This document shows, in pieces, positions 2,648-63,622 of a stretch of DNA of 64,000 bases. Both the position numbers and the translations under genes were made by a program. The notes beneath the pieces are model-generated. The model had not been told where the DNA came from. It did no database searches and saw only the letters and a program-made list of their open reading frames with translations. Numbering within the stretch: position 1 is the stretch's first letter; the number at the start of each line of letters is the position of its first letter. The DNA comes from a virus. Location of the stretch: positions 1 through 64,000 of IMG/VR virus record IMGVR_UViG_3300046517_001051, one strand, 5' to 3'.

Positions 2648-3382
2648 TCACTCTGGGTTCTGCGGCGCCCACGAAATGTCGTAGTCATCTGCCAGCGGCC
2701 GAGCATCTTCTGGCTCATCCGGCATGTCGATGCGACGAGACTTGTGCTTCCCGTGACGAAGTGACGTCGGCTTCACGATGATCGGGATCTCCTCGTCCAT
2801 CACGTTGAGGTAGTATGGCGGGTCCTCGATGAATGACTCGTCCCTGTCACGATCTGGCGTGATGACACTGTCGTCGTGGTAGAGGAATGGAGTCCGAGTC
2901 TTCCCACGCATGAAGTCGCCAAACGGCCTCCACGCCTCCATCATCTTGTTGAAGCCCTTGTAGCCTTCCTTCCAGAGCTGCTTCAGGACGATCATCAGCC
3001 GCTCGGCCGTGCGCCAGTTGACACGGTCCTGCATCTCCATCTTGAACATGTTCGATGGCGCGCAGCCCATTCTCTCGGCGAGCATCGTCAGCGTCACCTT
3101 TGGTCGCAGCATCTTGCGCCAGCGACCAATTTGCCCTCTCCCGAACAAGACCTTGCGCGGGTGGCCAATCTTCTTGCAGCTCTGGCAGATGACCCTGTCG
3201 CCATAGTACTTCGACATGGCGCTCGGCTGCCGCTGGTGCAGGCACCACGCACAGCGCGGCACCGTTGCTTCATAGATCGGCTCCCGCGAGTAGGGGATCT
3301 GGTCCTCCCACTCACGGATCTTCTCCCGCTGCTCAGCGGGTGCGTCGTACATCGCACGCTTGGCGTTCTTGTAGTGATTCAT
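2648..3382 (-). CDS. Zinc-finger / HTH DNA-binding protein
   Basis: 244 residues from an ATG at 3382 that overlaps the preceding TGA (ATGA). Two Cys pairs (CAWC at about 44-47 and CQSC at about 67-70) form a likely zinc finger. A helix-turn-helix-like stretch follows at about 97-140 (LTMLAERMGCAPSNMFKME), then a long charged C-terminus. A sequence-specific DNA-binding regulator fits this order. It directly follows another Cys-rich gene and lies beside the inverted-repeat region at 3712-3914, which could be its target; that is inference. Confidence 0.6.
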   Translation of the reverse strand: MNHYKNAKRAMYDAPAEQREKIREWEDQIPYSREPIYEATVPRCAWCLHQRQPSAMSKYYGDRVICQSCKKIGHPRKVLFGRGQIGRWRKMLRPKVTLTMLAERMGCAPSNMFKMEMQDRVNWRTAERLMIVLKQLWKEGYKGFNKMMEAWRPFGDFMRGKTRTPFLYHDDSVITPDRDRDESFIEDPPYYLNVMDEEIPIIVKPTSLRHGKHKSRRIDMPDEPEDARPLADDYDISWAPQNPE

Positions 3383-3627
3383 CGCGTCGCTCCTCTGCGC
3401 TTCTCGCACTGCCTGTGCGTCTTCATGCAACCGATGGAGCAGAATAGGTCGAAGAGTCTCTCTGGCTCGGTGTGGCTGCCGTCGTCGAGTTCGAGTTGCG
3501 AGTAGTATGCGAAGAGGTGACGCCGATCTACACAGCCGCACCACTGGCACGTCTCTCCTTGCGTCACGCGCACCGTCTCTCGAAGGATCGACTCACGAGT
3601 GAATGCGTTTCGAGAAACCTCTTTCAT
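3379..3627 (-). CDS. Small Cys-rich zinc-binding protein
   Basis: 82 residues from an ATG at 3627. Cys positions CQWCGC (about 27-32) and FCSIGC (about 62-67) give two pairs suited to one zinc. It is the first gene downstream of the inverted-repeat region, so any leftward promoter there would drive it. The stop overlaps the next start in an ATGA. Function unknown, probably protein or nucleic-acid binding. Confidence 0.6.
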   Translation of the reverse strand: MKEVSRNAFTRESILRETVRVTQGETCQWCGCVDRRHLFAYYSQLELDDGSHTEPERLFDLFCSIGCMKTHRQCEKRRGATR

Positions 3628-3711
3628 GAGTTGGCGACCTCCTTGCCCTCCCGGAAGAAACGAGTCATCGGTGGATTCAGCAGCACAGGTTAGGGTTTCG
3701 TTAGGGAAAAA

Positions 3712-3739
3712 CAGCTCTTTTTATACTAGATAACGGGGC
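3712..3739 (+). repeat. Inverted repeat, left arm (28 bp)
   Basis: Begins CAGCTCTTTTTATACTAGAT and ends AACGGGGC. It is the exact reverse complement of 3887-3914; the match stops abruptly at both ends. Confidence 0.9.
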
Positions 3740-3886
3740 TCGTTCGACGTAGTCCTGCACCCAGAGACCTCTCTCTCTCGTGATCCCTCTCTATCTCTCT
3801 CTCTCTCTCTTTCTCAAAAATCCCAGAGAGATAGATAGATAGATAGATTTAGAGAGAGAGGGGGTTACCGCACCGGTAGGAAGCGG

Positions 3887-3914
3887 GCCCCGTTATCTAG
3901 TATAAAAAGAGCTG
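3887..3914 (-). repeat. Inverted repeat, right arm (28 bp)
   Basis: Read on the minus strand this arm has the same 28 bases as the left arm, including TTTTTATACT. In this orientation its TATACT would direct transcription towards the gene starting at 3627. Confidence 0.9.
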
Positions 3915-3937
3915 ATTTTTCGCCTCCGTCTTCAGCC

Positions 3938-4327
3938 CTAACTCCTTACCTCTAAACGACTTACGTCGATTCCCCGGTAATACCATATCAGCTCCTCAAC
4001 TTTATCCTTTTCAATCTTCAGCTCCCTCGCAACCCCGTTCACAGCCGGAATCGACCTCGCAACCATTGTGCGACGGTCCGCAGAGAGTCGCAGGACCGCG
4101 ACAGGCTCGCCAGCATCCGCGAGTCGCTGCATGACGATGCGCTGGATCGTGCTGACCTCGCCATCAGCCATCTTCAACTCGATCCAACCTCTGCCATCGC
4201 GATGAGCGAAGTAGAGATCTGGCCACCCCGCCTCTTGCGTTGCGTGACCATGGATAGAGAACACCGCAGCGCCGCGTGCCTTCAGCGCAGCCTTCAGCTC
4301 CGCCTTCCACGCCGCTTCATTCTTCAT
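3938..4327 (-). CDS. VRR-NUC domain nuclease
   Basis: 129 residues from an ATG at 4327, overlapping the sigma-factor gene by 11 bp. The middle carries the PD-(D/E)XK nuclease pattern of the VRR-NUC family: WPDLYF (about 40-45), then IELK (about 54-57), then a downstream Gln in the STIQRIVMQRL helix. Stand-alone VRR-NUC proteins are common in phages and cut branched or structured DNA, such as replication or recombination intermediates; that role is taken from the family. It is the last gene before the inverted-repeat region. Confidence 0.75.
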   Translation of the reverse strand: MKNEAAWKAELKAALKARGAAVFSIHGHATQEAGWPDLYFAHRDGRGWIELKMADGEVSTIQRIVMQRLADAGEPVAVLRLSADRRTMVARSIPAVNGVARELKIEKDKVEELIWYYRGIDVSRLEVRS

Positions 4328-5072
4328 TGCCGTTCCTCGCAGAGAGCAACAACCACCGCATCTCGTGCTTCGCTTCCTCAGCGATCTGGCAGGCACGCTG
4401 GCGGGAGATGCATTCCGCCTTCGCGATCTCGCGGCCGACTTCAGCGTCGACGACGATCCTGCGCAGGATCCGCAACATCCGCGCGCCACTCTCCGAAGCG
4501 CCGAGAGTTCCCTCAGCAGCAGTGAGCCACTCCTCATCCTCGTGAGCCTCCGCCTCACAACGGTGCGGCGTTGGAGCAGGAACGACGTCACCGAGGGGAC
4601 GCGCGACAGCCGGGCTCACATCCGCGTCGAGGCTCGCATGAGTCACCGTCGCTCCCCGCTTCGCCCGTCCACAGAACTTCGTCGCCCAGCCAACGGCGAA
4701 GCAGGCATTGGCATAGAGCCAGCTCGCGAGCGCAGAGTCCTTCGACTCGTCGAACGTCCGGAGGCCGCGGATGAGTCCGATGAGCGCCACCTGGACGACG
4801 TCGTCGAGGTCGTAGCCGGCCGAGCGCAGGACGCGGTTGAAACGGCGCCGGGCGACGACTACGGCTAGACCGTAATTGACTCGGACGAGCGCCTCCTCGT
4901 CCTCGACGGGCCGGGCCGGGATCAGGGAGCCGGCCCAGTCCATCCGGACGACCGCTCCGCCCGCGGGGAGGGGCCGCCCCGGCCCGATCGACTCGGGGGC
5001 CGGCCGGCGGGGGCCTCCCCTCTCCCGGGCGCCACTACGGGGCTCCGGCGGCGCCTCGGCGGGGCGACTCAT
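4317..5072 (-). CDS. RNA polymerase sigma-70-like factor
   Basis: 251 residues. After a Pro/Gly/Arg-rich N-terminus of about 60 residues there is a sigma region 2-like block: AGYDLDDVVQVALIGLIRGL, then ALASWLYANACFAVGWA. The C-terminal part (about 195-245) is helical and resembles a region 4 HTH (VGREIAKAECISRQRACQIA). It would bind host core RNA polymerase and redirect it to phage promoters. The ATG overlaps the preceding TGA. The presence of a phage sigma factor may explain why promoter regions in this genome lack clear host-type -35 elements. Confidence 0.75.
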   Translation of the reverse strand: MSRPAEAPPEPRSGARERGGPRRPAPESIGPGRPLPAGGAVVRMDWAGSLIPARPVEDEEALVRVNYGLAVVVARRRFNRVLRSAGYDLDDVVQVALIGLIRGLRTFDESKDSALASWLYANACFAVGWATKFCGRAKRGATVTHASLDADVSPAVARPLGDVVPAPTPHRCEAEAHEDEEWLTAAEGTLGASESGARMLRILRRIVVDAEVGREIAKAECISRQRACQIAEEAKHEMRWLLLSARNGNEE

Positions 5073-5380
5073 GGGCGAGCGATCGGCGGGAGGGCCGCAA
5101 GCGACTCAGCAACGCCGGGCTCTTGGAGCGCGAGGGCGGAGCAGGCTTTCGCCCACGCCGTCGCACCGAGCGGCGCCATCCCTGAGTAGCCGATGCCGCG
5201 GTGAGGACGGCCCGCGCCATCCGTCACGAGCACCTCAGCGATCCAATCACCGATGCTGGTCGGGTGTGCGTAGAACCTCGTCCTTGCCTCGCAACCCCAG
5301 CGTCGCGACGCCCAGATCTGGGCCGTCTGCTCGTTCATGTCGGGGCGGATGCCGCCGACGATCGAGTCGGCGGGGCTCAC
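5069..5380 (-). CDS. Hypothetical protein, 103 aa
   Basis: GTG start at 5380 in a GTGA overlap with the preceding gene. A mixed alpha/beta protein with a Trp- and Gly-rich middle. No recognised domain. Co-transcribed with the sigma factor that follows. Confidence 0.6.
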   Translation of the reverse strand: MSPADSIVGGIRPDMNEQTAQIWASRRWGCEARTRFYAHPTSIGDWIAEVLVTDGAGRPHRGIGYSGMAPLGATAWAKACSALALQEPGVAESLAALPPIARP

Positions 5381-14967: not shown

Positions 14968-15231
14968 TCACTCGTAGTCTTCGTCGCGTTGTCTTCCATG
15001 TAGCTTCTCAATCTCGCGGTCTTCCTCAGCATCCATCTCTAGGGCGCGGCGCGACTCGTTGATGTAGACGAGGATCGCCGTCTTGTCATAGTTGTCCGGC
15101 ACCAGGTTGTCCCCGAGCCACAGCAGGTAAGCAGCCGGGACGTCGCGCAGGGCCTGCCCTCGGTATTTGCCGAAGGGCATCCGCGTGTCATCGGTGAACC
15201 GCTCCGCGCGAAGGTCGGGGCGCTCAGGCAC
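14968..15231 (-). CDS. DUF3820-like protein
   Basis: 87 residues from a GTG at 15231, overlapping the radical SAM gene by 8 bp. It carries the signature MPFGKYRGQALRDVPAAYLL (about 18-37), typical of the DUF3820 / exonuclease-associated family in phages and bacteria. The C-terminus is an acidic helix. The family has no settled biochemical function; it often accompanies nucleases and DNA repair genes. Confidence 0.7.
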   Translation of the reverse strand: MPERPDLRAERFTDDTRMPFGKYRGQALRDVPAAYLLWLGDNLVPDNYDKTAILVYINESRRALEMDAEEDREIEKLHGRQRDEDYE

Positions 15232-16624
15232 TAGGGTTCCCCCGCGGGTAGACTGCCTGCTTTAGGTCCGCCGTGCGGAGGGCCTTCGCGGACCCAAACA
15301 GCTCGCTGCCGCACCGTGGTTCCCCTTCGTTGTCGTCGGCGCAGTGGAGACAACCCGTCGGCGCGCAGGCCTTCACTTCCTCGAACCGGTCTCCGAGGTT
15401 GGCTCGCGAGAACATCGGGACCTTATGCCCGTGGCACTGGTCACTGGTGATGAAGTCTCGACCGATCGAGATGCCGCGCTTGCTGGTGATCTCGTCGGAG
15501 ATTGGGTCCCTAGCGTACTTGTACTCATAGCACGTTGCATACGTCAGGCCCAGTGCGGCGGCCCGCTGCGAGTAGCGTCGATGCCCCTCCAGCCGGTAAC
15601 TCTCCTCGACGGTCTTCTGACCGCCGATGTTGTCCTTGAAGAGGCGCTCGAACTCACCACCACGCTCGGGGCCGAACCGTTGCTTGATTCGATCAACCAT
15701 GGCCGGCGCCCAACTGAATCCCGCCTCGACGAACTTGACGATGACGTGATCTGCACCCGCTTCCTTCAAGAGGCCAAACAACGTCTCGACGTCGGAGTGA
15801 GTGACCACGCCGGGGACGATCGGGTTGCACTGAATGCTGACATAGATCCCCGCTGCCTTCAGCATCCGGATCTGGTCAAGGTGATCCTTGAGAGGGAGGG
15901 CGCCGGGGCTCAGCTTCTTCCAGTCTTCGGGAGACGGGGTGTTGATTGACTTCTGGGCGTAGCTGTATGGGTTCTGCTTCAGGAGATCGACGGCCCACGA
16001 CGGGTAGGGGAGTCGCGACAGGAAGAAGATCGGCACACCCTGCTCAACGAATGCTTCTGCTCCTTGCTGCGTGTTGTGGTAGACGTCTTCCAGCGGCAAG
16101 AACGGGTCCGTGAAGGACGAGAAGTAGCCGGCTGCCACCGTCTTCAACCGAGACAATTGAGAGCGAACTTGCGCCCCGTAGTGGACAGGGACTGAGACAA
16201 CACCCGAGCCTCGATAGCCGCGGAACCCCGAGTTGACGTAGCAGAAGGCACAGCCCACCGTGCAGTACCCGCCATAGGGCTCGGTCAGGATTGCATCCGT
16301 GAAGCATGGGCGGGGTCGACTCCGCTCGTCGGGGTCCGTCTTGCTCTGGTACCAGCCTTGCAGTGGCTTCGCTGAGTCGATGCGGATGTGAGGGAGGGGC
16401 TCCAGGTAGATCCGGACGTCTTTCTTGTTCTCATCCTCTGCATTGCGGACCATGCCGATGCGGGCGGTGCGCGACTTCATGATGCGGCCCGTCAGCTCGT
16501 CAAACTCTTCGATGATCGGCCCAAGATCGTCCTTCGGCTCTGGCCGCATGAAATACTGGTACGCCTCACGCGCGGGCTCATCGGAGCCCTTCATCCCGTC
16601 TTGCAGCCAAGCAGCATGATCCAT
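15224..16624 (-). CDS. Radical SAM enzyme, likely DNA base hypermodification
   Basis: 466 residues. The radical SAM [4Fe-4S] motif CTVGCAFCYV has C121, C125 and C128 (CX3CX2C). Near the C-terminus a second Cys set (C420, C425, C428, C438) suggests an auxiliary cluster. An N-terminal part of about 100 residues precedes the barrel. It is immediately preceded by a fold-type II PLP enzyme gene. In the thymidine hypermodification pathways of Salmonella phage ViI and Pseudomonas phage M6, a radical SAM enzyme and a PLP enzyme act on an amino acid joined to 5-hydroxymethyluracil in DNA. With the kinase, transferase and dUMP hydroxymethylase nearby, the same type of role is likely. The exact reaction is unknown. 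Confidence 0.75.
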   Translation of the reverse strand: MDHAAWLQDGMKGSDEPAREAYQYFMRPEPKDDLGPIIEEFDELTGRIMKSRTARIGMVRNAEDENKKDVRIYLEPLPHIRIDSAKPLQGWYQSKTDPDERSRPRPCFTDAILTEPYGGYCTVGCAFCYVNSGFRGYRGSGVVSVPVHYGAQVRSQLSRLKTVAAGYFSSFTDPFLPLEDVYHNTQQGAEAFVEQGVPIFFLSRLPYPSWAVDLLKQNPYSYAQKSINTPSPEDWKKLSPGALPLKDHLDQIRMLKAAGIYVSIQCNPIVPGVVTHSDVETLFGLLKEAGADHVIVKFVEAGFSWAPAMVDRIKQRFGPERGGEFERLFKDNIGGQKTVEESYRLEGHRRYSQRAAALGLTYATCYEYKYARDPISDEITSKRGISIGRDFITSDQCHGHKVPMFSRANLGDRFEEVKACAPTGCLHCADDNEGEPRCGSELFGSAKALRTADLKQAVYPRGNPSA

Positions 16625-33274: not shown

Positions 33275-33530
33275 GCTTGTATGCCTCCAGCATCTTGTAA
33301 GTCTCCCACAGCGCCTTCTTGATGACCGAGCCTCGCAGCTCGGCGTCGTTGATCTCCAGCCAGGCGGTGCCGCCGAGCCGGTCCGTCTGCTTGACCTCCA
33401 CTGCGAAGCAGTCCTCGCTGAGACCGATGACGCGAACGATACTGCCGTGGGCGCGGCCCAAGGGCAAGTACTCGCCCTGCCACACCAGCATCGGCTCGCG
33501 CTTCTCCAGCTCGTGGACTCGCAGCGTCAT
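33267..33530 (-). CDS. Hypothetical protein, 87 aa
   Basis: ATG at 33530 (ATGA with the NAMPT-like gene). A small beta-barrel-like protein (LVWQGEYLPLGRAHGSIVRV). It is directly downstream of the NAD genes and translationally coupled to them, so it might be an accessory part; this is only positional. Confidence 0.55.
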   Translation of the reverse strand: MTLRVHELEKREPMLVWQGEYLPLGRAHGSIVRVIGLSEDCFAVEVKQTDRLGGTAWLEINDAELRGSVIKKALWETYKMLEAYKHD

Positions 33531-35014
33531 GACTGGCCCCTCAGCGTCTCGCGGACATTGGCGAAGGTCTGCGTCCGCAGGAAGCAGCCGTCGCGCCAGA
33601 CCGGCTTGAGCAGCGAGTGCGACGAGTCGGCGGGGAGCTGATCGCAGAGCACCAGCTTGCCTGACTCGGGACTCTTGAGCACCGCCAGCCGGCCGCGGGC
33701 CGAGTGCTTCGTTCCGTCGTCGGTGGCCGGCTTCTTGTAGAGGTCGCGCGACTCGCCACCGACCATCGCCCAGGTCGCCTTCATGGCGAACCCGAACGTG
33801 TCGCGGGTGACGTGCTGGTAGGTGTAGCTGCCGACGCCGAACACGACGTTGGTCGACGCGAAGCCGGCGGCGCCGAGCCGCTCGACGATCTCGCGCGCCC
33901 GCTCGTACGTGATCGCGTCGCCGTAGATCACGCCGACGTGCGAGTCCAGCTGCCGGTGGCCGGTGCTGGTCCGCGTCCCGCCGAAGACGTCCCAGAGGAG
34001 CTGGACGACGCCCTTGATGGCTGGTCCAGCCGAGACGGTCTGCCCAGTCACCGCGGCGTAGTCGTCGCCGCAGAGGATCTTGACGGGATCACCGCTGTCG
34101 GGGCGGATCACCAGCTTGCCGTCGCGCGCCATGATCTTCGCCTTGAGCGAGGGCAGCGTCTCGGTGAGGACCGACCAGAGGTCCCACGTGTCGGAGACGA
34201 CCGACACGATGCCGGTGGGATACAGGCTCAGCAGGCGCTCGAACGTCTCACGCTCGCCCTCCTCGCCGCCGGCCGACATGACGCTGTGCTCGGTTGCCGG
34301 GACGCTGCCGCCGACGAGGCCGTTGCCCTCGATATAATGGGGTTGGCCGCCGTAGTACTCGTCGACGAACGGGAGCGCTGGTAACGTGTCGGTCCCCGTG
34401 AAGCTGAGGAGGTGCGCCGCGCCGCTGAGCTGCGCCGCTTCGACGCCGGCCATGCCGCGCATCGAGAAGTCGTGGCCCTGCCAGGGGACGAAGTCCGGGT
34501 CACCGCCAGTGAGCCTCGCCGCCTCGTCGAGCATGGCGCGGAGCCGGTGCGCGCTCGTCGCCGACGTGCACGGCAGCCAGAGCACGTTGCTCATCAGCGT
34601 CTCGACGTAGTTGACGAGCCAAGCGAAGTCGTCGTGCGTGTTCTCGACGGTCAGCATCGGCACGCGCAGCGGGCAGCGAGTGCCTTCTGGGAGGGCTCTG
34701 AACTCCAGCGGCACGTGGCCCAGCCGGTGCAGCGCGCGGACGTGGTCGGTGCCAATGGCGTTCGGGCCGAGGTAGCGGTCGACGAGCGTCTTGTACTCGT
34801 CGCAGACGTCCTGCGTCGGCCGCTTGAACCAGGACTCCATCTCCTCGCACAGGTACTTCTGGAGGAAGTACTGGAGGCCAAAGAACACGACGCGGTCCAC
34901 GCCCTCGACGCGCGAGCTTCGCGGCGTCCAGTTCGAGTAGACGCGGGTGGTGCCGGCGGGGTACTGGCGCCGGTGGTCCAGCTTGTAGCCGTCGATCAGT
35001 AAGAGGGGATTCAC
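33527..35014 (-). CDS. Nicotinamide phosphoribosyltransferase-like (NAMPT/Namat)
   Basis: 495 residues, the usual length for NadV/NAMPT. Landmarks: DGYKLDHRRQYP (8-19), QGHDFSMRGM (179-188), the catalytic His in VPATEHSVM (H243), VSDTWDLW (273-280) and VIRPDSGDP (302-310). Family enzymes join nicotinamide to PRPP to make NMN. The gene overlaps a PRPP-synthetase-like gene (ATGA). This two-gene set is also the layout of the phage NAD+ reconstitution pathway NARP1, in which the NAMPT homologue (Namat) joins nicotinamide to ADP-ribose pyrophosphate made by a Prs homologue (Adps), giving NAD+ directly. Which substrate is used cannot be read from the sequence by eye. Confidence 0.9.
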   Translation of the reverse strand: MNPLLLIDGYKLDHRRQYPAGTTRVYSNWTPRSSRVEGVDRVVFFGLQYFLQKYLCEEMESWFKRPTQDVCDEYKTLVDRYLGPNAIGTDHVRALHRLGHVPLEFRALPEGTRCPLRVPMLTVENTHDDFAWLVNYVETLMSNVLWLPCTSATSAHRLRAMLDEAARLTGGDPDFVPWQGHDFSMRGMAGVEAAQLSGAAHLLSFTGTDTLPALPFVDEYYGGQPHYIEGNGLVGGSVPATEHSVMSAGGEEGERETFERLLSLYPTGIVSVVSDTWDLWSVLTETLPSLKAKIMARDGKLVIRPDSGDPVKILCGDDYAAVTGQTVSAGPAIKGVVQLLWDVFGGTRTSTGHRQLDSHVGVIYGDAITYERAREIVERLGAAGFASTNVVFGVGSYTYQHVTRDTFGFAMKATWAMVGGESRDLYKKPATDDGTKHSARGRLAVLKSPESGKLVLCDQLPADSSHSLLKPVWRDGCFLRTQTFANVRETLRGQS

Positions 35015-35901
35015 GAGAGGAGCATCCTCGCCACGGCCTCGCGGCCGACGGTCTCAAGGGGGACGACGGTGAACCGATCACTGAGCCCTGATGTCTGCAT
35101 CGGGAACGAGTCGGTGGTGAAGATCTGTTGGTAATACTTGAGCAAGTCGCCAGTGCCCTTCGAGAAGATGCCGTGCGACACGACGAGGTCCAGCGTGACG
35201 TGACGACTGAACGAGGTCAGCACCTCGCCGAGCCCGACGAACGTGCCCCCGCCATCGCAGACGTCGTCCACGACGAGGTAGTGGCCGTGGGGCACCGGCT
35301 CACAGGCGAACCTCGTCAGCTTGCCGGTGTCCGGGTCGCGGTGCTTCGTCGCCTGGTACACCGGCACATCGAGCATGCGGGCGAAGTCCTCGGCGCGCCG
35401 GGCGGCGCCCGCGTCCGGTTGGATCACGCCGCGATATCCACGTAGCGGGATCGCGTCGACGAACGGATGCGCGGGGTCTATCGCGAGAAACTCCGGGCCG
35501 AACAGCGCTGCGAGCACGGTGCTGTGAGGATCTAGCACGACGACCGAGTCCAGCTCGTAGGGTCGCAGCGTCTCGGCGTAGACCTTCGCGGTGAATGCGT
35601 GCCGCCCGTCGCGTCGGTCTTGCCGGGCGCCGGGAAAGTACGGGCAGAACAGGCCGAGCTTGCGGGGCCGCTGCGCGCGGACGGCGTCGAGGAGCGCCAG
35701 CAATGTCAGCCACCCGTCGGCGTCGCAGATCCTCGCGTCGACGTACAGCGCACCCTTCTCGGCATCCTGCAGGTTGACCACGACGTGCGGCTCGCCGCCG
35801 GGGAACGTCAGCGACTGGTGCTGGATCGTCCCGACGACGTTGATCGGGTTCGGCATGACCAGCTCGCAGGCGACCCAGTGGAGCGTGAGCTTGGATCTCA
35901 T
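35011..35901 (-). CDS. PRPP-synthetase-like enzyme (Prs/Adps)
   Basis: 296 residues. FPGGEPHV (33-40), PYFPGARQDRR (87-97), VLDPHST (122-128), QPDAGAARRAE (161-171) and the PRPP-loop VVDDVCDGGGT (210-220) match class I PRPP synthetases. It is slightly shorter than cellular Prs (about 310-320). Several allosteric-region positions differ, and FSDGE of cellular enzymes is FPGGE. It would make PRPP from ribose-5-phosphate, or, if it is an Adps, pyrophosphorylate ADP-ribose. Coupled by ATGA to the NAMPT-like gene. Confidence 0.85.
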   Translation of the reverse strand: MRSKLTLHWVACELVMPNPINVVGTIQHQSLTFPGGEPHVVVNLQDAEKGALYVDARICDADGWLTLLALLDAVRAQRPRKLGLFCPYFPGARQDRRDGRHAFTAKVYAETLRPYELDSVVVLDPHSTVLAALFGPEFLAIDPAHPFVDAIPLRGYRGVIQPDAGAARRAEDFARMLDVPVYQATKHRDPDTGKLTRFACEPVPHGHYLVVDDVCDGGGTFVGLGEVLTSFSRHVTLDLVVSHGIFSKGTGDLLKYYQQIFTTDSFPMQTSGLSDRFTVVPLETVGREAVARMLLS

Positions 35902-45274: not shown

Positions 45275-45658
45275 CTACATCACCCTGCTGCTGAGGTCGA
45301 AGATGACGGCCAGAACACCGCGCGTCCCGCTGAGCGTCCCGCGAACGAGCCAGATGTTCACCGGCAGCGCCGTCCCGTCCTTGCGGAGTGCGGACAGCGG
45401 CTTGCCGCCTGCCATCAGCTCGCCGCCAGGATCAGTTGTCAACTTGGCCCGGTTTGCCGGATGCTGGTCGCGCAACTCCGGCGGCACGAGTTGATCGACG
45501 CACATGCCGCGCAACTCGTTGTACTCCGTGTACCCGAATAGCCTCTCGGCCGCCGCATTGTGCCAGAGGATCGTTCCTGCCGCTCCACCGTCGACGAATA
45601 GCGCCGGAAGTCGGTCGGCCATCATCTTGGCCACGTCGCCGTCGAAGATGGGGATCAT
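45275..45658 (-). CDS. Stand-alone PAS domain protein
   Basis: 127 residues from an ATG at 45658 (ATGA). Residues about 14-125 form one PAS domain: LPALFVDGGAAGTILWHNAA, AAERLFGYTEYNELRGMCVD, LVPPELRDQHPANR, then LSALRKDGTALPVNIWLVRG and LAVIFDLSSR. This is the standard PAS order (I.yvN.a.e.lfGy....eG.....L.p.....h......+.DG..........). There is no kinase or output domain. PAS domains sense redox, light or small ligands; a lone one in a virion-gene cluster is unusual. Confidence 0.85.
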   Translation of the reverse strand: MIPIFDGDVAKMMADRLPALFVDGGAAGTILWHNAAAERLFGYTEYNELRGMCVDQLVPPELRDQHPANRAKLTTDPGGELMAGGKPLSALRKDGTALPVNIWLVRGTLSGTRGVLAVIFDLSSRVM

Positions 45659-46059
45659 GATTGAGGAGGAGTCGTTCTGATTGGGACAGGGACCGCCGCA
45701 GCAACCAGCCGTTCCAGCAGCGTGCACTTCTCGGCGAGCAGTTTGTTGTTCTCGTAGGTCAGGTCATGGCGCGATCTTTCCTGCCTGGTGAGTTCTTCTT
45801 GGAACTTGTCTTTCTCGGCGCGCCACTGCTGCTCGCGATCCTGATTGGCTCTGTGCAGGTTCTCCAGGTCGACGCGACAACCGGTGAGTTCCAGCCGACA
45901 CCGCTTCTCGCTGTCCTTCAGGGAGGCTACCTCAGTGTGGGTCACACTGACCGCAGCCTTGGTATGCTTCGCGTCGCGAAGGTCGCGGGCGCGAAGCCAA
46001 CCGAAGAGCGCTACGAACGCGCCCATGATAGAAGGAAGGATGAGATCGGTGGTCGGCAT
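45655..46059 (-). CDS. Membrane anchor plus coiled coil, i-spanin-like
   Basis: 134 residues from an ATG at 46059 (TAATG). One N-terminal membrane helix (LILPSIMGAFVALFGWLRAR) followed by a coiled coil of about 80 residues (about 35-115). This topology is that of inner-membrane spanins (Rz-like). No small lipoprotein overlaps it, so partner and role are uncertain. Confidence 0.55.
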   Translation of the reverse strand: MPTTDLILPSIMGAFVALFGWLRARDLRDAKHTKAAVSVTHTEVASLKDSEKRCRLELTGCRVDLENLHRANQDREQQWRAEKDKFQEELTRQERSRHDLTYENNKLLAEKCTLLERLVAAAVPVPIRTTPPQS

Positions 46060-51954: not shown

Positions 51955-53111
51955 GTCGGCACCTCCAGCATCGGGGCGGAGCCCGGAGTGAAGACGCCGA
52001 GGCCGCCGTGGTTGACGATGTTCCCGTACTTGCCGCCGCAGGTGTTGCGCGTGCCATCGCAGCCAGGCTTCACCGTGAATGCGTCGCCGACCTGGATGGC
52101 GTACGGTGTTGGAATCAACAGCGTCACCTCGCGCGTGCTGTCGGTGTAGGCCGCGATCGGCGACGCCATGCCGGAGTTCAGGCCGCTAATCCAGTTGACA
52201 GTGCCGTCCTTGAAGTAGTCGTCGGCGATCACGGCCAGCGGCGTGCAGACGACCGTCGGCGTGCTGGGGTTCGTGATGTTGATGGTGACAGGCACCGCCG
52301 CCACCGCGCCAACGAACGTCGCGGACAACTTTGCGGTCGTCGGTGACTGGACGACGGCGTAGTACGGCGTGTTCCCTGACAAATCGATCGGGTTGGCCCC
52401 GCCGCCACCGACGAACTTCAGCGCGGCACCAGTGACTAGGTTGTGGGCCAGCGGCCAGGTCACCAGGTCCGTCGTATCGCTGATCGTGACGTTCTGGATC
52501 GTGGTCGCGAATGGAGGCGTGGTCCACGTTCCCGTGTTGCCGCGGAACTTCGTCGTGGCGCCGCTGACCGACAGCACGGTGCTCGTCTGCGTCAGGCCGG
52601 TGAGGTCCTTCTTACAAGTCGCCACATCGCCCAACGTGTAGGGGCAGACTGGCGCATAGAACCCGCCGAAGCGACCACCGACCGGCTGCGTCAAGAACTT
52701 CGTGACGCCGACCAGCTCTAGGTTGTAGCCAGCGCTATCCCGCGACGTCTTCACGATCCACTTCTGCGCGAAGTAGTACTTGCGCCACGGCCAGCGCCAG
52801 TTGACGACCCGCATCAGCACCTCGGAGTCGTCGAACTTGCGACCGTCGAGGTCACTGGTCGTCAGCGCCGTGGACGCGATCGACCCGAAGATCGACATGT
52901 TGGCGTCCTTCAACCCCGTCTCGCGTCGCTCGTTGCTGTGCTGCGGCGCATCCGGGACGAGGTATGTCTCGCCGTCGACGTCCAGGGGATAGTCGTGCGA
53001 CGTGAAGCGAAACACGGTGCCGTCGGGGCGCGTGATCTTCACTATCTCGGCCCACTCGTGCGTTCGATACGCCTGAGTCGCCTGATCGCCGCTGGTGAGG
53101 CGAAGAGTCAG
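51951..53111 (-). CDS. DUF2163 tail hub protein (GTA gp13-like), CTG start
   Basis: 386 residues if started at the CTG at 53111, where GAGG stands seven bases upstream and CTG overlaps the preceding TGA as CTGA. The next standard start is a GTG at 53042, which would remove conserved-type sequence (THEWAEIVKITRPDG). Features: CPYTLGDVATCKKDL (about 157-171), YFKDGTVNW and GCDGTRNTCGGKYGN..NHGG near the C-terminus, all DUF2163 landmarks. The Cys residues may hold an iron-sulfur cluster. An inserted beta domain of about 95 residues (about 200-295) separates the two halves. Confidence 0.8.
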   Translation of the reverse strand: MTLRLTSGDQATQAYRTHEWAEIVKITRPDGTVFRFTSHDYPLDVDGETYLVPDAPQHSNERRETGLKDANMSIFGSIASTALTTSDLDGRKFDDSEVLMRVVNWRWPWRKYYFAQKWIVKTSRDSAGYNLELVGVTKFLTQPVGGRFGGFYAPVCPYTLGDVATCKKDLTGLTQTSTVLSVSGATTKFRGNTGTWTTPPFATTIQNVTISDTTDLVTWPLAHNLVTGAALKFVGGGGANPIDLSGNTPYYAVVQSPTTAKLSATFVGAVAAVPVTINITNPSTPTVVCTPLAVIADDYFKDGTVNWISGLNSGMASPIAAYTDSTREVTLLIPTPYAIQVGDAFTVKPGCDGTRNTCGGKYGNIVNHGGLGVFTPGSAPMLEVPT

Positions 53112-54202
53112 AAGGTCACCTCGGCACCGAACCGCGTGCCGGTCACCAGCCAGTTGATCGTCGCCGTCGTCTTCCGGAGCATGTAGGGACCCGCCGCGCC
53201 GCCCGTCCCGCCCGAGGCGGTGCTGTTGTTCCCGTTGGTCCCCGCGGCGCCGGCCGCTCCGCCGTCTCCGCCCCTCCCTCCGGCCCCGTTCGAGGCTCCC
53301 CCCGAACCTTGGACGTTGATCGTGCCCGAGCCTCCAGGCGAGGCGCCTAGCGTGCCTACGGCCCCGCCGGCTGAGGGGCCGTGACCCTGGCCGCCGCCTC
53401 CACCGCCGCCGTCCGAGGATGGGCCGGCCGCAGCGCCGCCGCCACCCCCGCCGCCGCCTCCACCGCCGATGACGCCATAGTTGGCGATCGTCGTGTCTTG
53501 CCAGACTCGCATCGCCGGGCCGCCGGCAGTACCATTGGCTCCGGTCGCCGAGATTCCGGCGAGGCCGCCGCGACCGCCGGCACCACCCATGCCAGCGACG
53601 ACGCCACTAGGACCGATGATGATGACCGTGGTGCTACCGGCGGGGAGTACACCCGTGTCGATCGCCGGCAAGGAGGACGTGCTGCTACCACGCGGGATGA
53701 TGATGCGCAGCGTCACCGCGACGGTCGACGTCCCATCCCAGTGGTAGTACCCGAGCAGGTCATCGTGCAGGTTGTATGCCGAGGCGTCCGTGATGCCGAT
53801 GGTGAGGCTGAATGGGACCCGCGTCACCCCCAGCGCGCTCCCGCGCGCGAAGGAGCCATAGTTGCGGACGATCCACGTGCCGGCCGCCGTCGACTTGCTG
53901 GTTAGCCAGATCTTCACCGCGGCGCCGGCGGCAAGCGTGACAAGCGTCGTACTGCCTGCGTCCTTGATCAACGTCGACTGCGTGCCGTGGTTCGTGACGA
54001 TGAACTGGAACCCGGCGCGAGTCAACCTCGGGTCATAGCCCAGCGACCTCGCGTCCGGCAGTTGCAGGATCGAGCCACCAGCCGTCGGCGCGATGTCGAC
54101 GATGCGGTGCTCCCAGATCATCTTCGTCGTGCCCGTGATCGCGCCGCGGGCGATCGAACCGCCAAAGGCCGAGTCAGCAAGACTGGGGTAGAGGACGACC
54201 AT
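53108..54202 (-). CDS. Glycine-rich tail adhesin
   Basis: 364 residues, ATG at 54202 (TGATG). Residues 1-190 are beta-rich; from about 195 to 345 come many glycine runs (up to 11 Gly) with short Ala/Asn/Ser spacers, then a small C-terminal strand part. This resembles polyglycine-sandwich receptor-binding domains. It is inserted between Dit and hub genes, an unusual place for an adhesin. Confidence 0.65.
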   Translation of the reverse strand: MVVLYPSLADSAFGGSIARGAITGTTKMIWEHRIVDIAPTAGGSILQLPDARSLGYDPRLTRAGFQFIVTNHGTQSTLIKDAGSTTLVTLAAGAAVKIWLTSKSTAAGTWIVRNYGSFARGSALGVTRVPFSLTIGITDASAYNLHDDLLGYYHWDGTSTVAVTLRIIIPRGSSTSSLPAIDTGVLPAGSTTVIIIGPSGVVAGMGGAGGRGGLAGISATGANGTAGGPAMRVWQDTTIANYGVIGGGGGGGGGGGAAAGPSSDGGGGGGGQGHGPSAGGAVGTLGASPGGSGTINVQGSGGASNGAGGRGGDGGAAGAAGTNGNNSTASGGTGGAAGPYMLRKTTATINWLVTGTRFGAEVTF

Positions 54203-58701: not shown

Positions 58702-59127
58702 TTACGTGGCGTAGGCCACTTGCTCGTCGTAGATGAATGGGACGGACACGTTGCGCATGAACCAGCCCTCGGCCGGTCTGCCCTTGTTGATGCTGGACGC
58801 AAAGAACTCCAGCCCGCCGAACTTGAACCCCTTGAATGCCGCGTCGACGACGTCGGAGATCTGGAGGCTGAGTTTGTAGCCGGTCGCCATCGGCGTGAAG
58901 ACCTGGACCTCGACCACGCCCGCGGTGCGGAACGTCCCGGAGAGTCCACCGGTCATGACCTGCTTCGACTCTCCCCAGTTGACAACGAAGCGAACCCAAG
59001 CGATGGTTGGGTCGGTGACCGCCGGCCGCTGGTTCTCATAGACGACGAGGTTCGCGCCGCCGAGCGGCGTCTCGACGTTCGTGATGAACCGACTGCGAAT
59101 CAACAGATGGGCGTCGTACTTGCTCAT
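58702..59127 (-). CDS. Tail terminator protein
   Basis: 141 residues, ATG at 59127 (ATGA). WVRFVVNWGESKQVMTGG, FRTAGVVEVQVFTPM and a final NVSVPFIYDE are the pattern of DUF4128-type tail terminators. It closes the tube at the head end. Confidence 0.7.
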   Translation of the reverse strand: MSKYDAHLLIRSRFITNVETPLGGANLVVYENQRPAVTDPTIAWVRFVVNWGESKQVMTGGLSGTFRTAGVVEVQVFTPMATGYKLSLQISDVVDAAFKGFKFGGLEFFASSINKGRPAEGWFMRNVSVPFIYDEQVAYAT

Positions 59128-59564
59128 GAGCCGCCCCCGAAGGCGCGAGCCTCCACGGCGACGACACGCAGGATGCCCTCAGGCGCCTGATTCGACCAAC
59201 CGTCTTCGAGCCGCTGGGCGTACTTCGTCGGGTTGACCAGGGACATGCGCGATGAGAATTGGCCCAGAGCGTTGCGCGCACCGCCCGTCTGAAGCATCTC
59301 GGCGACCTGCTCCTGGATGCGAGCTTGCGCTGCGCTGCCGTTGATGTCGTCGACTCCGTCGCGCTCAACTGCCACGGCACCCTCGGGGACAACGTTCCAG
59401 TTGTAGATGAAATGCCCGGTGCGGTAGGGCGACAGCTGGATGGCCCGAGTGCCGGTGCGCACCATAAACCGGCTCAGCACGTCGACGGCGATGCCTGGAG
59501 TCTTCACCTCGACCCAATCTCGAATGCGAGCCGCGAACACCGCTGGATCCCGGGTCGTTGCCAT
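59124..59564 (-). CDS. HK97 gp10-like neck/tail completion protein
   Basis: 146 residues, ATG at 59564 (TGATG). Long N-terminal helix with VLSRFMVRTGTRAIQLSPYR, then TGHFIYNWNV, and LVNPTKYAQRLEDGW: the gp10 pattern (V...tP..tG.a+.nW......n...Ya..lE.G). Confidence 0.75.
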   Translation of the reverse strand: MATTRDPAVFAARIRDWVEVKTPGIAVDVLSRFMVRTGTRAIQLSPYRTGHFIYNWNVVPEGAVAVERDGVDDINGSAAQARIQEQVAEMLQTGGARNALGQFSSRMSLVNPTKYAQRLEDGWSNQAPEGILRVVAVEARAFGGGS

Positions 59565-59926
59565 CAGGGAGCGACTCTCCCTCGCGTGTGAAGCTCCAGG
59601 AGGTATCCCTGAGTAACGGTGCCCGATGAGATCGCGTTTGCCTTCGTCACCGTCCAGAGCGTCGAGTTGATCGTGATCATGTCGGCGACGACTACGGCGC
59701 TAGCGCCAACGAAGATCCTCGCCGTGAATGCGTTGTCACCGGCGTCCTGCATCTTGTAGAGCGGTGAGCACTTCACTGTTGACGTCGTCGTAGTCTCGGA
59801 CAGAAGCGCGCCGTCGGCGCCCATCGCCCCGTCCGCGATCCTCGTGAGCGTGCACGTCGTGCCGCTCAGGCTGTCCAGCATGGCCGGAACTTGCGCGGAC
59901 CAGTAGTCATCGAGCGCAGTGGTCAT
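59564..59926 (-). CDS. Head-tail closure protein
   Basis: 120 residues, ATG at 59926 (ATGA). A beta-barrel-sized protein with TTSTVKCSPLYKMQ and VVADMITINSTLWTVTKANA, which fits SPP1 gp16/HK97-type stopper proteins by size, strands and position. The family assignment is by layout rather than by a strict motif. Confidence 0.55.
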   Translation of the reverse strand: MTTALDDYWSAQVPAMLDSLSGTTCTLTRIADGAMGADGALLSETTTTSTVKCSPLYKMQDAGDNAFTARIFVGASAVVVADMITINSTLWTVTKANAISSGTVTQGYLLELHTRGRVAP

Positions 59927-62361
59927 ACTCGCAGCAAGTTGTCCCGAGCACTAGTGTCGAGGATGTAAGAGATCGTCCGAATTGCCAGCGTGTAGAGGGG
60001 TTGAGTGCCCTTGACTCCCGCGTACGTCTTCGAGCTAGATAGGGGCCCTGGCAACGTGCCCGACTCACTACGCACGCCTGGATTGCCGTCAAGAACGTTC
60101 TTGATCAAGGGGTTGCCATTGGCAACCTCGCTGGCAAACAACGCGGTAGCCTCCAGCAGCGAAGGGTGAAGTTCGCTCGCGGCCCACGCCCAACCTTCGG
60201 CATCTTCGACGCCTGTCCTCGGCCACATCAGAGACTGGAGTTTGGTGTACTTGCGACCGACGAAGTTGAACGTCTGGTCCATGAACCGCGTCGCCTCGCG
60301 GATGGCCTGCTCCTTCGCGCCCTGCGACAAGGCAAACCACGACGCCGGTGCTCCGTGGTCGTTGAGATAGTTGTCGACGTATGCAACAGTGCAGTACGCG
60401 TTCGCGTCGACCAGACCTGTCCCTGTCTCGACTTGGAACACGGTGTTCACCCAAAGGTTGTAGACGAATGAATTGACACTGACGTACGTCGCGAAGTTGC
60501 TCCGCGTCAGCGGGACGCCGCCGATCGTGTTGTTGCGCCACATCAGGTCGTGCGGCGTGTTGATCGCGTCCTTGCCGTTGACGATCGACAGCACGCTCGG
60601 CGTCTGGTCGACGGTCCACGAGTCGAACACGAAGTCTTTGACTTGACCGTTGGCCAGCGCCTGCACACCGTACGGATACAGCATGTTCTGCAGGTCCCAC
60701 AGGCAGCAGCTGACCGGCCCCTCGACGCGGAGACCCGTGATCGTCACGCCAGATCGCCCCTTGCCAGAATCGCTCGCACCACCGTCGGTCCAGTCACCAA
60801 CGATCGACCCAAAGTGTCCATTGATCGTGTCGCGCAGCGCGACCGTGCGCACCTTCAGGTTCGTGACCGTCGCGCGCTGTCCGGTAGTCACGAAGTCGTC
60901 GGTCCAATATCCGAAGCGCAGCACCGCGTTCTCTTGGTGAAGAATCCAGCAGTCAGTCACCGAGTAGTTTTGCAGATTCTCCAGCATGATGAGGCAGTCG
61001 TCGTCCTCGAACATGTGGACGCGAGATGCCATGCTGCTATTGGTGAGATAGTCGGCCGCCATGACAACGGATCCAGTACCTCCAACCCACGTCGCGTTCG
61101 TCAGCACTCGGTCTAGCGTGTGGATGCCATAGAACGAGTCGTACAGGCCTGGGTCGACGATCGAGATGCGAGAGACGACGTTGCCGAATGTCTGGAACTG
61201 TGGCGCCGAGAAACTCGCGTCTGCTCCGACGATCGCGCAGAACAACACCCCAGTCGAGAACGGCGCCGACACGACACCGGGGGCGCCGCCGCGCAGGATG
61301 AACGTATCGCCAGGAGAGTTCGCCGACGCAAACGGGTCGTGATTGATCGTCGTCGCGGTCTGCGTCGTGACCTTGCGCGACTTGCCGTTGTTCGTGCCCG
61401 ACGTCATCGTGATCAGGCCGTCAGACCAGTAGCCGTTCGCGAAATGCGTCCCGAGACCCGTGGTCGTCGACACGGTCGTCGTGAACGTCCCGGCGGACAT
61501 CGCGCCGGTCGTGTTGTTGATGAGGTCGCCCATCAAGACCCCAGGACCGGTGACCTTGACAGTGCTCGATGACCTGATGTCGATCGCCGCACAGAACACA
61601 GCGCCGTACTTGAGATAGATCGCGCCAGTTGACGCGACCGGGAACTGCTGGACCGACGGGATCCAGCATCCGGCGTGGACGACGAGCACCTGGCCGGCTC
61701 CGACGCTCGTCTGCGACCCGTCGAACACGACCTGCGTGCCGGCCGGGATCGCTTCCTCTAGCGGCAGCGCGTTGATCGCGACGCGGTTCACCAAATCGCC
61801 GTTGATCGTCACCTCGACGCAGGTGTCCGCAGGCATCGTCACCTGCAGGTTGTTCGCGACGATGCTGGCGACAACGCCAGGGTACGTCGGGAAGATCGAG
61901 AAGCTGGTAACGGCGCCGGCGAGGCGCGTGATCACGACGGTTTGCGTTGCGTCACTCCCGTACTTGATCTCGGAAACTTCGACTCGGGTGTTCGCAGTCC
62001 AGTCTCGCGTCGCGCCGTCGCACACACGCTCGCGGCCCCACACGAACGACGCCTGTCCGCCAACGGTCGCCGTGAATCGAGTCGAGCCCTTGTGCTTTGG
62101 CGTGATCCGGTAGGTGTCGCCAGGGCCAACAGTCGGAGCTGGTGATAGCGGGCCCCATGGCGCGGTTCCAGTCGACTCAAGCGTGGTCGACGTCGTGGCA
62201 TTGGCCAGGATGACCCGACTCTGGCCAGCCGCCGGACCGGTGAGCAGATCAACCGTGCTCCCGGCCCACGCGTTCACGTCGGCACTGGCGGTGTGTAACA
62301 CCGTTGCAGAATTGCCGCCGCTGAGCGTGCCGCTGACTCCGTTCCAGACTTCAAGCGTCAC
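59923..62361 (-). CDS. Beta-helix spike fused to head-tail adaptor
   Basis: 812 residues from a GTG at 62361 (GAGG upstream). Residues 1-640 are beta-rich and look like a depolymerase-type right-handed helix: TGAIYLKYGAVFCAAIDIRS, GPGVLMGDL, GVTITGLRVEG and GKDAINTPHDLMWRNN recall dextranase/pectinase-like proteins. Residues about 641-812 read VETGTGLVDANAYCTVAYVD, QAIREATRFMDQTF, LMWPRTGVEDAEGW, the complete pattern of the DnaT-like family that serves as head-tail adaptor behind capsid genes. Normally the adaptor is a separate protein of about 150-170 residues. The frame is open throughout with no break at the junction. Confidence 0.75.
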   Translation of the reverse strand: MTLEVWNGVSGTLSGGNSATVLHTASADVNAWAGSTVDLLTGPAAGQSRVILANATTSTTLESTGTAPWGPLSPAPTVGPGDTYRITPKHKGSTRFTATVGGQASFVWGRERVCDGATRDWTANTRVEVSEIKYGSDATQTVVITRLAGAVTSFSIFPTYPGVVASIVANNLQVTMPADTCVEVTINGDLVNRVAINALPLEEAIPAGTQVVFDGSQTSVGAGQVLVVHAGCWIPSVQQFPVASTGAIYLKYGAVFCAAIDIRSSSTVKVTGPGVLMGDLINNTTGAMSAGTFTTTVSTTTGLGTHFANGYWSDGLITMTSGTNNGKSRKVTTQTATTINHDPFASANSPGDTFILRGGAPGVVSAPFSTGVLFCAIVGADASFSAPQFQTFGNVVSRISIVDPGLYDSFYGIHTLDRVLTNATWVGGTGSVVMAADYLTNSSMASRVHMFEDDDCLIMLENLQNYSVTDCWILHQENAVLRFGYWTDDFVTTGQRATVTNLKVRTVALRDTINGHFGSIVGDWTDGGASDSGKGRSGVTITGLRVEGPVSCCLWDLQNMLYPYGVQALANGQVKDFVFDSWTVDQTPSVLSIVNGKDAINTPHDLMWRNNTIGGVPLTRSNFATYVSVNSFVYNLWVNTVFQVETGTGLVDANAYCTVAYVDNYLNDHGAPASWFALSQGAKEQAIREATRFMDQTFNFVGRKYTKLQSLMWPRTGVEDAEGWAWAASELHPSLLEATALFASEVANGNPLIKNVLDGNPGVRSESGTLPGPLSSSKTYAGVKGTQPLYTLAIRTISYILDTSARDNLLRV

Positions 62362-62443: not shown

Positions 62444-63622
62444 TCAGCCGAGGAGACGACAGCCCAACTCACGCCGGATGACAGCGGCTCCGTAGAGCAT
62501 GTCGAAACTCCAGCGCGTGCGCTTGAATTCGCGCGTGATCTCCAGACGGAGGGTCAAGCCACTGATCGGGTCTTGCGCCGAGGCGCTGACGTTGCCCATG
62601 CCCTCAGGAGCAGGCATCATCGGACGGGTCGCGAACGCGATCGCGTCGCGGTGGAACGCCAGGTTGACGTCGTGCGACGCCACCACGACCACGGGGTCAG
62701 TCGCCGTGAACGTGCCGACGAGCGGCGGATAGACGTTGACGGTGCCCGTCGAGCCGGCGGTGATGGTGACCGCGGCGGTGACCACGTACTGCTGCGTCGA
62801 GGTGTTGGTGAAGGTGATGATGTCACCCTCGATGAACACCATGTTGTTCGCCGTGGCCTTCGCCAGGACGATCGACAGCTGCGGGGTGTACACGCCCGGC
62901 GAGCCGGTGAACAGCGTGTAGGTGTTCGTCGCGTTGACCGTCAGCGCGCCGCCCGTGGCGCCCGCGGTGACGTGGCGCGGCATGTTCTGGTTCATCCACC
63001 ACTGGAAGCCCAGCTTGCGGTTCAGCATGCCGTTGTTCATCACGTCGAACGAACCTGTGAAGTTGCCGTTGGCAAACTCAGGCAGCACGAGGGCGGCACC
63101 CTCCGCGTCCGGGTTCACCAGGAAGTGGCGAGGCTCCAGAGGCGCGAGCGTCTTGTTGAGCAGCTTGCGGACGTTCGCGGCATCCTTGACACCCGGCGTG
63201 CCGAACGGCGTGGTGCCGGCGGTGCCGACGGCGCTGTAGAACTTCTTGTACAGGCCGAGGATGTAGTTGTCGATCTGGTTGACGAGGGTCTTGATCGCCT
63301 CCTGCGCCTGCATCGGGACAGTGCCGTTCCAGACCTCCTGGAGTTCCTTGTCCGTGAGGTAGAAGGGTGCTTCATACCACTGGTCGAGCACGACCTGAGT
63401 CGTGGTCAGCGGCATGTCCGCGGTCGTCGGCGGCGTCGCGGCGGCGGTGACCGGCTGCGCTTGGATCGCGGTCGGGACCGGGACGTCGACCGTCGAGCCC
63501 TGACGGCCGGCGATCATGTCCGAGTAGGAGAGGACCAGTCGCGGGGTCACCGCGTTCTGGCGAAGAGAGACCAGTGCGGAAGCCAGGAGCTTCGGCACAA
63601 GAGCAGAATACGTGTTGGCCAC
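62444..63622 (-). CDS. Major capsid protein, P22 coat-like
   Basis: 392 residues from a GTG at 63622. The start MANTYSALVPKLLASALVSL, then DVPVPTAIQAQPV, DKELQEVWNGTVPMQAQEAI and NQIDNYILGLYKKF follow the P22 coat protein (gene 5) family; the end GLTLRLEITREFKRTRWSFD, YGAAVIRRELGCRL is typical too. A beta-rich insertion lies at about 225-320. It is the main shell protein. Upstream hairpins and a downstream terminator suggest strong, separate expression. Confidence 0.8.
   Translation of the reverse strand: MANTYSALVPKLLASALVSLRQNAVTPRLVLSYSDMIAGRQGSTVDVPVPTAIQAQPVTAAATPPTTADMPLTTTQVVLDQWYEAPFYLTDKELQEVWNGTVPMQAQEAIKTLVNQIDNYILGLYKKFYSAVGTAGTTPFGTPGVKDAANVRKLLNKTLAPLEPRHFLVNPDAEGAALVLPEFANGNFTGSFDVMNNGMLNRKLGFQWWMNQNMPRHVTAGATGGALTVNATNTYTLFTGSPGVYTPQLSIVLAKATANNMVFIEGDIITFTNTSTQQYVVTAAVTITAGSTGTVNVYPPLVGTFTATDPVVVVASHDVNLAFHRDAIAFATRPMMPAPEGMGNVSASAQDPISGLTLRLEITREFKRTRWSFDMLYGAAVIRRELGCRLLG

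Follow-up and report, generated by a model that had tools for sequence, protein, structure and literature searches.

This locus raises the question of whether a phage head-tail adaptor is made as one polypeptide with a large beta-helical domain and, if so, what that domain would do at the neck of the virion. The window, the whole 64,000-nucleotide stretch analysed, comes from an IMG/VR virus record of 66.4 kb in total (IMGVR_UViG_3300046517_001051). The fusion open reading frame (ORF) lies on the minus strand and is a single uninterrupted frame with no internal stop among its 812 codons, as the original prediction, which gave no strand, had stated. The boundary between the N-terminal part (N-part) and the adaptor falls at codon 640/641 (60442/60441). 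The coordinates of the protein's parts and of the neighbouring genes are collected in Table 1.

In the reading direction, the gene order is capsid, fusion ORF, 120-aa gene, Neck1-type gene, tail terminator, and tail tube (PF18906). Within the neck operon, the fusion ORF has the position of an adaptor gene: it follows the capsid gene and precedes the stopper position, Neck1, and terminator. The 120-aa gene shares four bases with the fusion ORF and has no family match among the Pfam and phrog profiles. Separately, a stretch of the major capsid protein (residues 250-314) matches phrog_1302, a family of distal tail proteins (E 1.7e-7), which suggests a small module common to capsid and tail proteins.

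Table 1. Parts of the fusion protein and adjacent genes, in positions of the window.
Feature	Coordinates	Strand	Basis
Major capsid protein, P22-coat-like, directly upstream of the fusion ORF	62444-63622	-	phrog_283 E 4.8e-74; PF11651 E 6.1e-22
Whole fusion ORF	59923-62361	-	812 codons, GTG start, GAGGA Shine-Dalgarno-like element upstream
Tail-type module resembling BR0599, residues 1-95	62077-62361	-	Sequence likeness; other of the two PF09356 stretches in L003
Probable beta-sandwich preceding the helix, residues 96-240	61642-62076	-	Inferred from position and strand pattern, as in GH49 enzymes
First coil of GH49-like beta-helix (YLKYGAVF / YLAPGAYVKGA), residues 249-282	61516-61617	-	hhalign without insert, 95%, E 3.2e-8
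Inserted BR0599-like module, residues 283-360	61282-61515	-	PF09356 at 310-359, E 0.0049; L003 E 5.5e-6
Main body of GH49-like beta-helix, residues 361-638	60448-61281	-	L003 PF03718 E 3.4e-4; hhalign 73-77%, 95% without insert
D454-D455, aligned with the GH49 catalytic Asp pair	60997-61002	-	Alignment; role from PMC9953027, PMC6814745
Candidate internal start GTG641, preceded by CTTTGGGTGAACACC	60439-60456	-	Duplex -8.3 kcal/mol, both phages
Head-tail adaptor Ad1, residues 641-812	59923-60441	-	phrog_477 E 5e-28; PF20557 E 3.5e-22
120-aa gene, stopper position, next after the fusion ORF	59564-59926	-	Position only; conserved in L003
Neck1-type protein	59124-59564	-	phrog_169 E 3.2e-12
Tail terminator	58702-59127	-	phrog_179 E 8.5e-18

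The same uninterrupted fusion is present in a second genome. The independent IMG/VR contig IMGVR_UViG_3300046782_000200 (L003), retrieved by a search with the capsid protein (84% identical), encodes it in one frame at 2740-5163 without a stop at the junction. Identity between the two fusion proteins is 60% over the N-part and 81% over the adaptor, and the substitutions around the junction keep one frame on either side. The NG86 estimate of dN/dS is near 0.36 in the N-part and near 0.08 in the adaptor; by this measure, purifying selection acts on both halves. Among the relatives examined, these two genomes are the only carriers of the GH49-Ad1 fusion.

By its profile matches, the C-terminal half is a complete Ad1 adaptor, in agreement with the original prediction of a DnaT-like adaptor in the last 170 or so residues. 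The phrog_477 match spans residues 642-805, and the PF20557 match spans residues 643-754 (79.5 bits against a cut-off of 27); the name of the latter family, 'DnaT_2', is a legacy label only. The half can be aligned with stand-alone adaptors along its length. An AlphaFold2 (AF2) model of residues 626-812, built from 28 sequences, reached a mean pLDDT of 67. A Foldseek search with this model returned no significant match, and a search of solved structures by sequence found no relative of the adaptor half. In the VIA comparison, the top rows for the model were YqbG (Z 6.9), an adaptor homologue, the Mu neck protein (6.8), and HK97 gp6 (6.5), followed by the T1, T7-type, and P22 adaptors. Rows 1-16 are all of adaptor type, with Z scores that are middling (maximum 6.9).

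In 27 distinct relatives the adaptor stands alone, with a length of 171-191 aa, and it does so too in YuA, Ccr5, Bhz59, and a Listeria phage (166-173 aa). The interval between the capsid and adaptor genes is variable in the relatives and often holds at least one small gene. We infer that the fusion may have arisen when a gene arrived at this variable site and its stop was lost. In YuA and Bhz59, the gene preceding the adaptor is an endolysin gene with a one-base overlap. This one-base overlap of endolysin and Ad1 adaptor genes is seen in YuA-like phages (L056:1764-3007 and L058:1848-3082), so that an enzyme gene directly before the adaptor also occurs elsewhere.

The N-part is, as judged from profile comparisons, a beta-helix related to glycoside hydrolase family GH49 (dextranase and isopullulanase). 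Pfam reports PF03718 (Glyco_hydro_49) in the N-part of L003 at 21 bits, below the curated cut-off of 27, and does not report it in the N-part of the window phage. Therefore, the N-part is termed GH49-like and not a GH49 member. For the profile comparison, the PDB was queried with a dextranase fragment, which matched 1ogm (E 2.7e-184), and the GH49 set consists only of the matching sequences of 1ogm, 1wmr, and 6nzs. Aligned to this set with hhalign, the two N-parts gave a probability of 73-77% (E 2-3e-5) over residues 446-625, against at most 3% in 100 column shuffles (score 25 versus 44) and 0.1% for the reversed profile. Removal of residues 283-359, which hold the BR0599-like insert, raised the probability to 95% (E 3.2e-8) and extended the alignment from the start of the fragment to near the end of the GH49 helix; the shuffle controls belong to the run that included the insert.

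The helix does not fill the N-part. The original prediction had assigned all of the first 640 residues to a beta-helix, and a GH49-like helix is indeed found, but the alignment to it covers only some 310 of these 640 residues. The remainder consists of tail-type modules and a probable beta-sandwich, and all domain limits are approximate; residues 96-240 have no significant family match. The tail-type modules resemble the tail-hub module BR0599 (PF09356), which matches two stretches in L003 (E 5.5e-6, the second copy being the best) and is also carried by the tail hub of the window phage (51951-53042, E 1.9e-18). An AF2 model of the whole protein from two sequences had a pLDDT of 34, which gave no confident model of the N-part, and it was left unused. 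Searches for relatives of the N-part returned nothing beyond chance-level matches in named phages and plasmids, only L003 in viral contigs, and none among solved structures by sequence. A search through 299 bacterial genomes with a GH49 profile yielded a single match, below threshold. One match in a genome contig (L002) was rejected as spurious, being a short stretch within an unrelated bacterial region.

Taken together, the two halves point to one polypeptide that combines a GH49-like glycan enzyme or binder, two tail-type modules, and an Ad1 adaptor, displayed at the neck, with free adaptor possibly added. This reading is rather probable. Like other Ad1 proteins, the adaptor half would form a ring of twelve subunits beneath the portal, and the N-terminal half would hang outside the neck in the manner of the N-terminal Ig-like domain of the R4C adaptor. 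An outward-facing enzyme domain is expected because the corresponding domains of the R4C and RcGTA adaptors lie at the periphery or outside. The most likely outcome would be a neck encircled by glycan-active domains at its periphery. The N-part would bind, and probably hydrolyse, a glucan-like capsule or matrix polysaccharide of the host, and this contact would help the particle to reach the cell or stay near it. With no stop codon separating the two parts, every ribosome that translates the N-part runs on into the adaptor. Twelve copies of a domain of about 65-70 kDa would crowd the neck, so free adaptor from the conserved GTG641 might dilute the fusion. The more specific version, in which up to 12 covalently tethered GH49-type glucan hydrolases sit on a siphovirus adaptor ring with their copy number set by alternative starts, so that gene fusion would have put a virion depolymerase on the neck and not on the tail tip, is tentative and rather doubtful.

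The original prediction had placed a ring of spikes on the virion neck, and for the location there is a precedent in the outer-neck N-terminal domain of R4C (PMC10276861). The word 'spike' implies a trimer, and this part need not carry over to the present protein. GH49 enzymes are not known to be obligate trimers.

Whether the N-part would cut glycans or only bind them turns on its catalytic residues. The active site of GH28, GH49, and GH87 enzymes comprises three Asp residues (PMC6814745), and the key catalytic residues of a GH49 dextranase are Q402, D404, E407, D423, and D424 (PMC9953027). The D423-D424 pair aligns to D454-D455, which is invariant in the window phage and L003. The upstream catalytic Asp has no aligned counterpart in the N-part, and the Gln and Glu are absent from it in the alignment to the GH49 set; activity is uncertain for these reasons. 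D437, invariant in both phages, is a candidate third Asp if a short indel is allowed. Glycan-cutting activity is thus a plausible prediction. A serious rival is that the beta-helix has lost catalysis and acts at the neck as a lectin-like adhesin, tethering particles to capsule or matrix in a role like that of the RcGTA head fibres, which attach particles to the capsule (PMC7296036). The non-conserved first Asp, Gln, and Glu speak for a binder, whereas the invariant Asp-Asp pair, with D437 invariant nearby, speaks against it. Binding alone is a distinct possibility that falls short of being probable.

A second alternative concerns which product forms the ring. GTG641 is placed where stand-alone adaptors start and follows TTGGGTGAACACC; in both the window phage and L003, the duplex with the anti-Shine-Dalgarno (anti-SD) sequence has a calculated energy of -8.3 kcal/mol. 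Of the 18 start-like codons shared by the two phages, no other reaches this level, which 1.25% of all aligned codons attain in both. Codons 637-643 are identical in the two phages (P 0.04 for a run at that place); as proof of an internal start this run was rejected, since it is not significant when sought anywhere in the gene (P 0.44). The conserved GTG641 suggests that free adaptor may be made in addition. The original prediction had considered an internal start that produces a separate adaptor: the conserved codon with its SD-like site lends some support to such a start, but it would add free adaptor and not replace the fusion, because no stop lies between the parts. Inspection of the junction by eye found no conserved slippery heptamer for a programmed frameshift that would release the N-part; a TGA in the +1 frame overlaps GTG638. 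In the extreme case, the ring would consist mainly or wholly of free adaptor from GTG641, the long product would be minor or a non-virion enzyme, and the shared frame would reflect translational coupling and not tethering. The location of GTG641, its conserved SD-like site, and the local identity of codons all suit these nested products. However, so long an identical run has a fair chance of arising somewhere in the gene, and had the enzyme been meant as a separate product, one or other of the two diverged phages would be expected to retain a stop. Nested products of this kind are unlikely.

It is less likely still that the N-part is mainly structural, a capsid-neck bridging decoration that reuses the helix fold without a glycan role. 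The small genes in the capsid-adaptor interval of relatives fit a bridge, as do the attachment domains of the R4C and RcGTA adaptors, which contact the capsid; yet a large GH49 helix with a conserved Asp pair exceeds what a bridge needs, and the relatives examined manage without an N-part. An assembly join or single sequencing error that united two genes, for which only the rarity of the fusion speaks, has next to no chance and is ruled out by the continuous fusion in the independent contig (60-81% protein identity), with substitutions in frame on both sides of a junction that falls inside the range suspected in the original prediction (60350-60500).

If one polypeptide does place an enzyme in the adaptor ring, a core neck protein can act as a display platform, and a role of the neck in crossing or exploiting polysaccharide layers would be indicated. 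Such an arrangement would also lend itself naturally to fixed display in high copy and would bring a GH49-type fold into the virion. The neck domain would probably be accessory to receptor binding, because a Gp38-like tail-fibre adhesin (53108-54202, minus strand; PF05268 E 7.8e-6) among the tail-tip genes is a candidate receptor-binding protein.

Several further minus-strand genes of the window were recorded. Adjacent genes at 33527-35901 encode a nicotinamide phosphoribosyl transferase (33527-35014, phrog_448 E 2.4e-191) and a ribose-phosphate pyrophosphokinase (35011-35901, phrog_619 E 1.8e-57). Together they could regenerate NAD, perhaps as a counter to an NAD-depleting defence. A DNA repair photolyase match lies at 15224-16624 (phrog_9252 E 2.6e-218). 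A small protein downstream of the tail-fibre genes (45275-45727) has weak PAS-domain matches, the best at E 1.1e-4, below the Pfam cut-offs.

Apart from rare exceptions, the virion depolymerases described to date are located on tail fibres or tailspikes, and a review counts a single exception (PMC5380687). Judged by sequence, the present fusion departs from the pattern of a depolymerase tailspike, a trimer at the tail tip or baseplate: it belongs to the gene of the neck adaptor, which stands a long way upstream of the genes for the tail tip. Neck-borne tailspike-like proteins are known, so the original description as a new type of neck appendage was too strong: XM1 gp40 (PMC10457771), phi29 gp12 (PMC10491603), and the R4C Ig domain precede it. 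The collar spike gp40 of XM1 resembles the predicted N-part in being a tailspike-like protein at the neck (PMC10457771). However, gp40 belongs to a myovirus and is a separate trimer, not fused to an adaptor, whose Ig-like N-terminal domain binds gp4 and gp5 (PMC10457771), and it is homologous to the Det7 tailspike, not to GH49. The neck spikes and appendages of phi29 (gp12) and T4 (whiskers) are likewise separate proteins (PMC10491603). In phi29 gp12 and Dpo7, the likeness extends to a polysaccharide-enzyme-type beta-helix in a neck or pre-neck appendage (PMC10491603, PMC4658415), although neither has an adaptor domain and both are separate appendage proteins. Dpo7 is a siphophage depolymerase whose pre-neck location is inferred by homology (PMC4658415).

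A parallel in architecture comes from the adaptors themselves. The N-terminus of the siphophage R4C adaptor is an Ig-like domain at the neck periphery, so that R4C, like the fusion, bears an extra N-terminal domain on a neck adaptor (PMC10276861), and for the fusion too this domain is predicted to lie at the neck exterior. The R4C domain is an Ig-like unit of about 106 residues that contacts the capsid, whereas that of the fusion has about 640 residues with a GH49-like helix. In RcGTA, the adaptor is positioned external to the head and contacts the capsid through its attachment domain (PMC7296036). The GH49 dextranase and isopullulanase structures (1ogm, 1wmr, 6nzs) share with the N-part a helix that aligns over its whole length and the Asp pair. 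Unlike these cellular, secreted enzymes, the N-part stays below the Pfam cut-off, contains an inserted phage tail module, leaves the first Asp, Gln, and Glu unaligned, and belongs to a predicted virion protein. The C-terminal half corresponds to Ad1 proteins such as YuA gp63 (phrog_477) in family match over most of its length and in operon position, but in all other cases examined Ad1 stands alone at 166-191 aa, and here it is fused. Found in no other phage examined, the fusion of a GH49-type domain to an Ad1 ring protein appears to be new.
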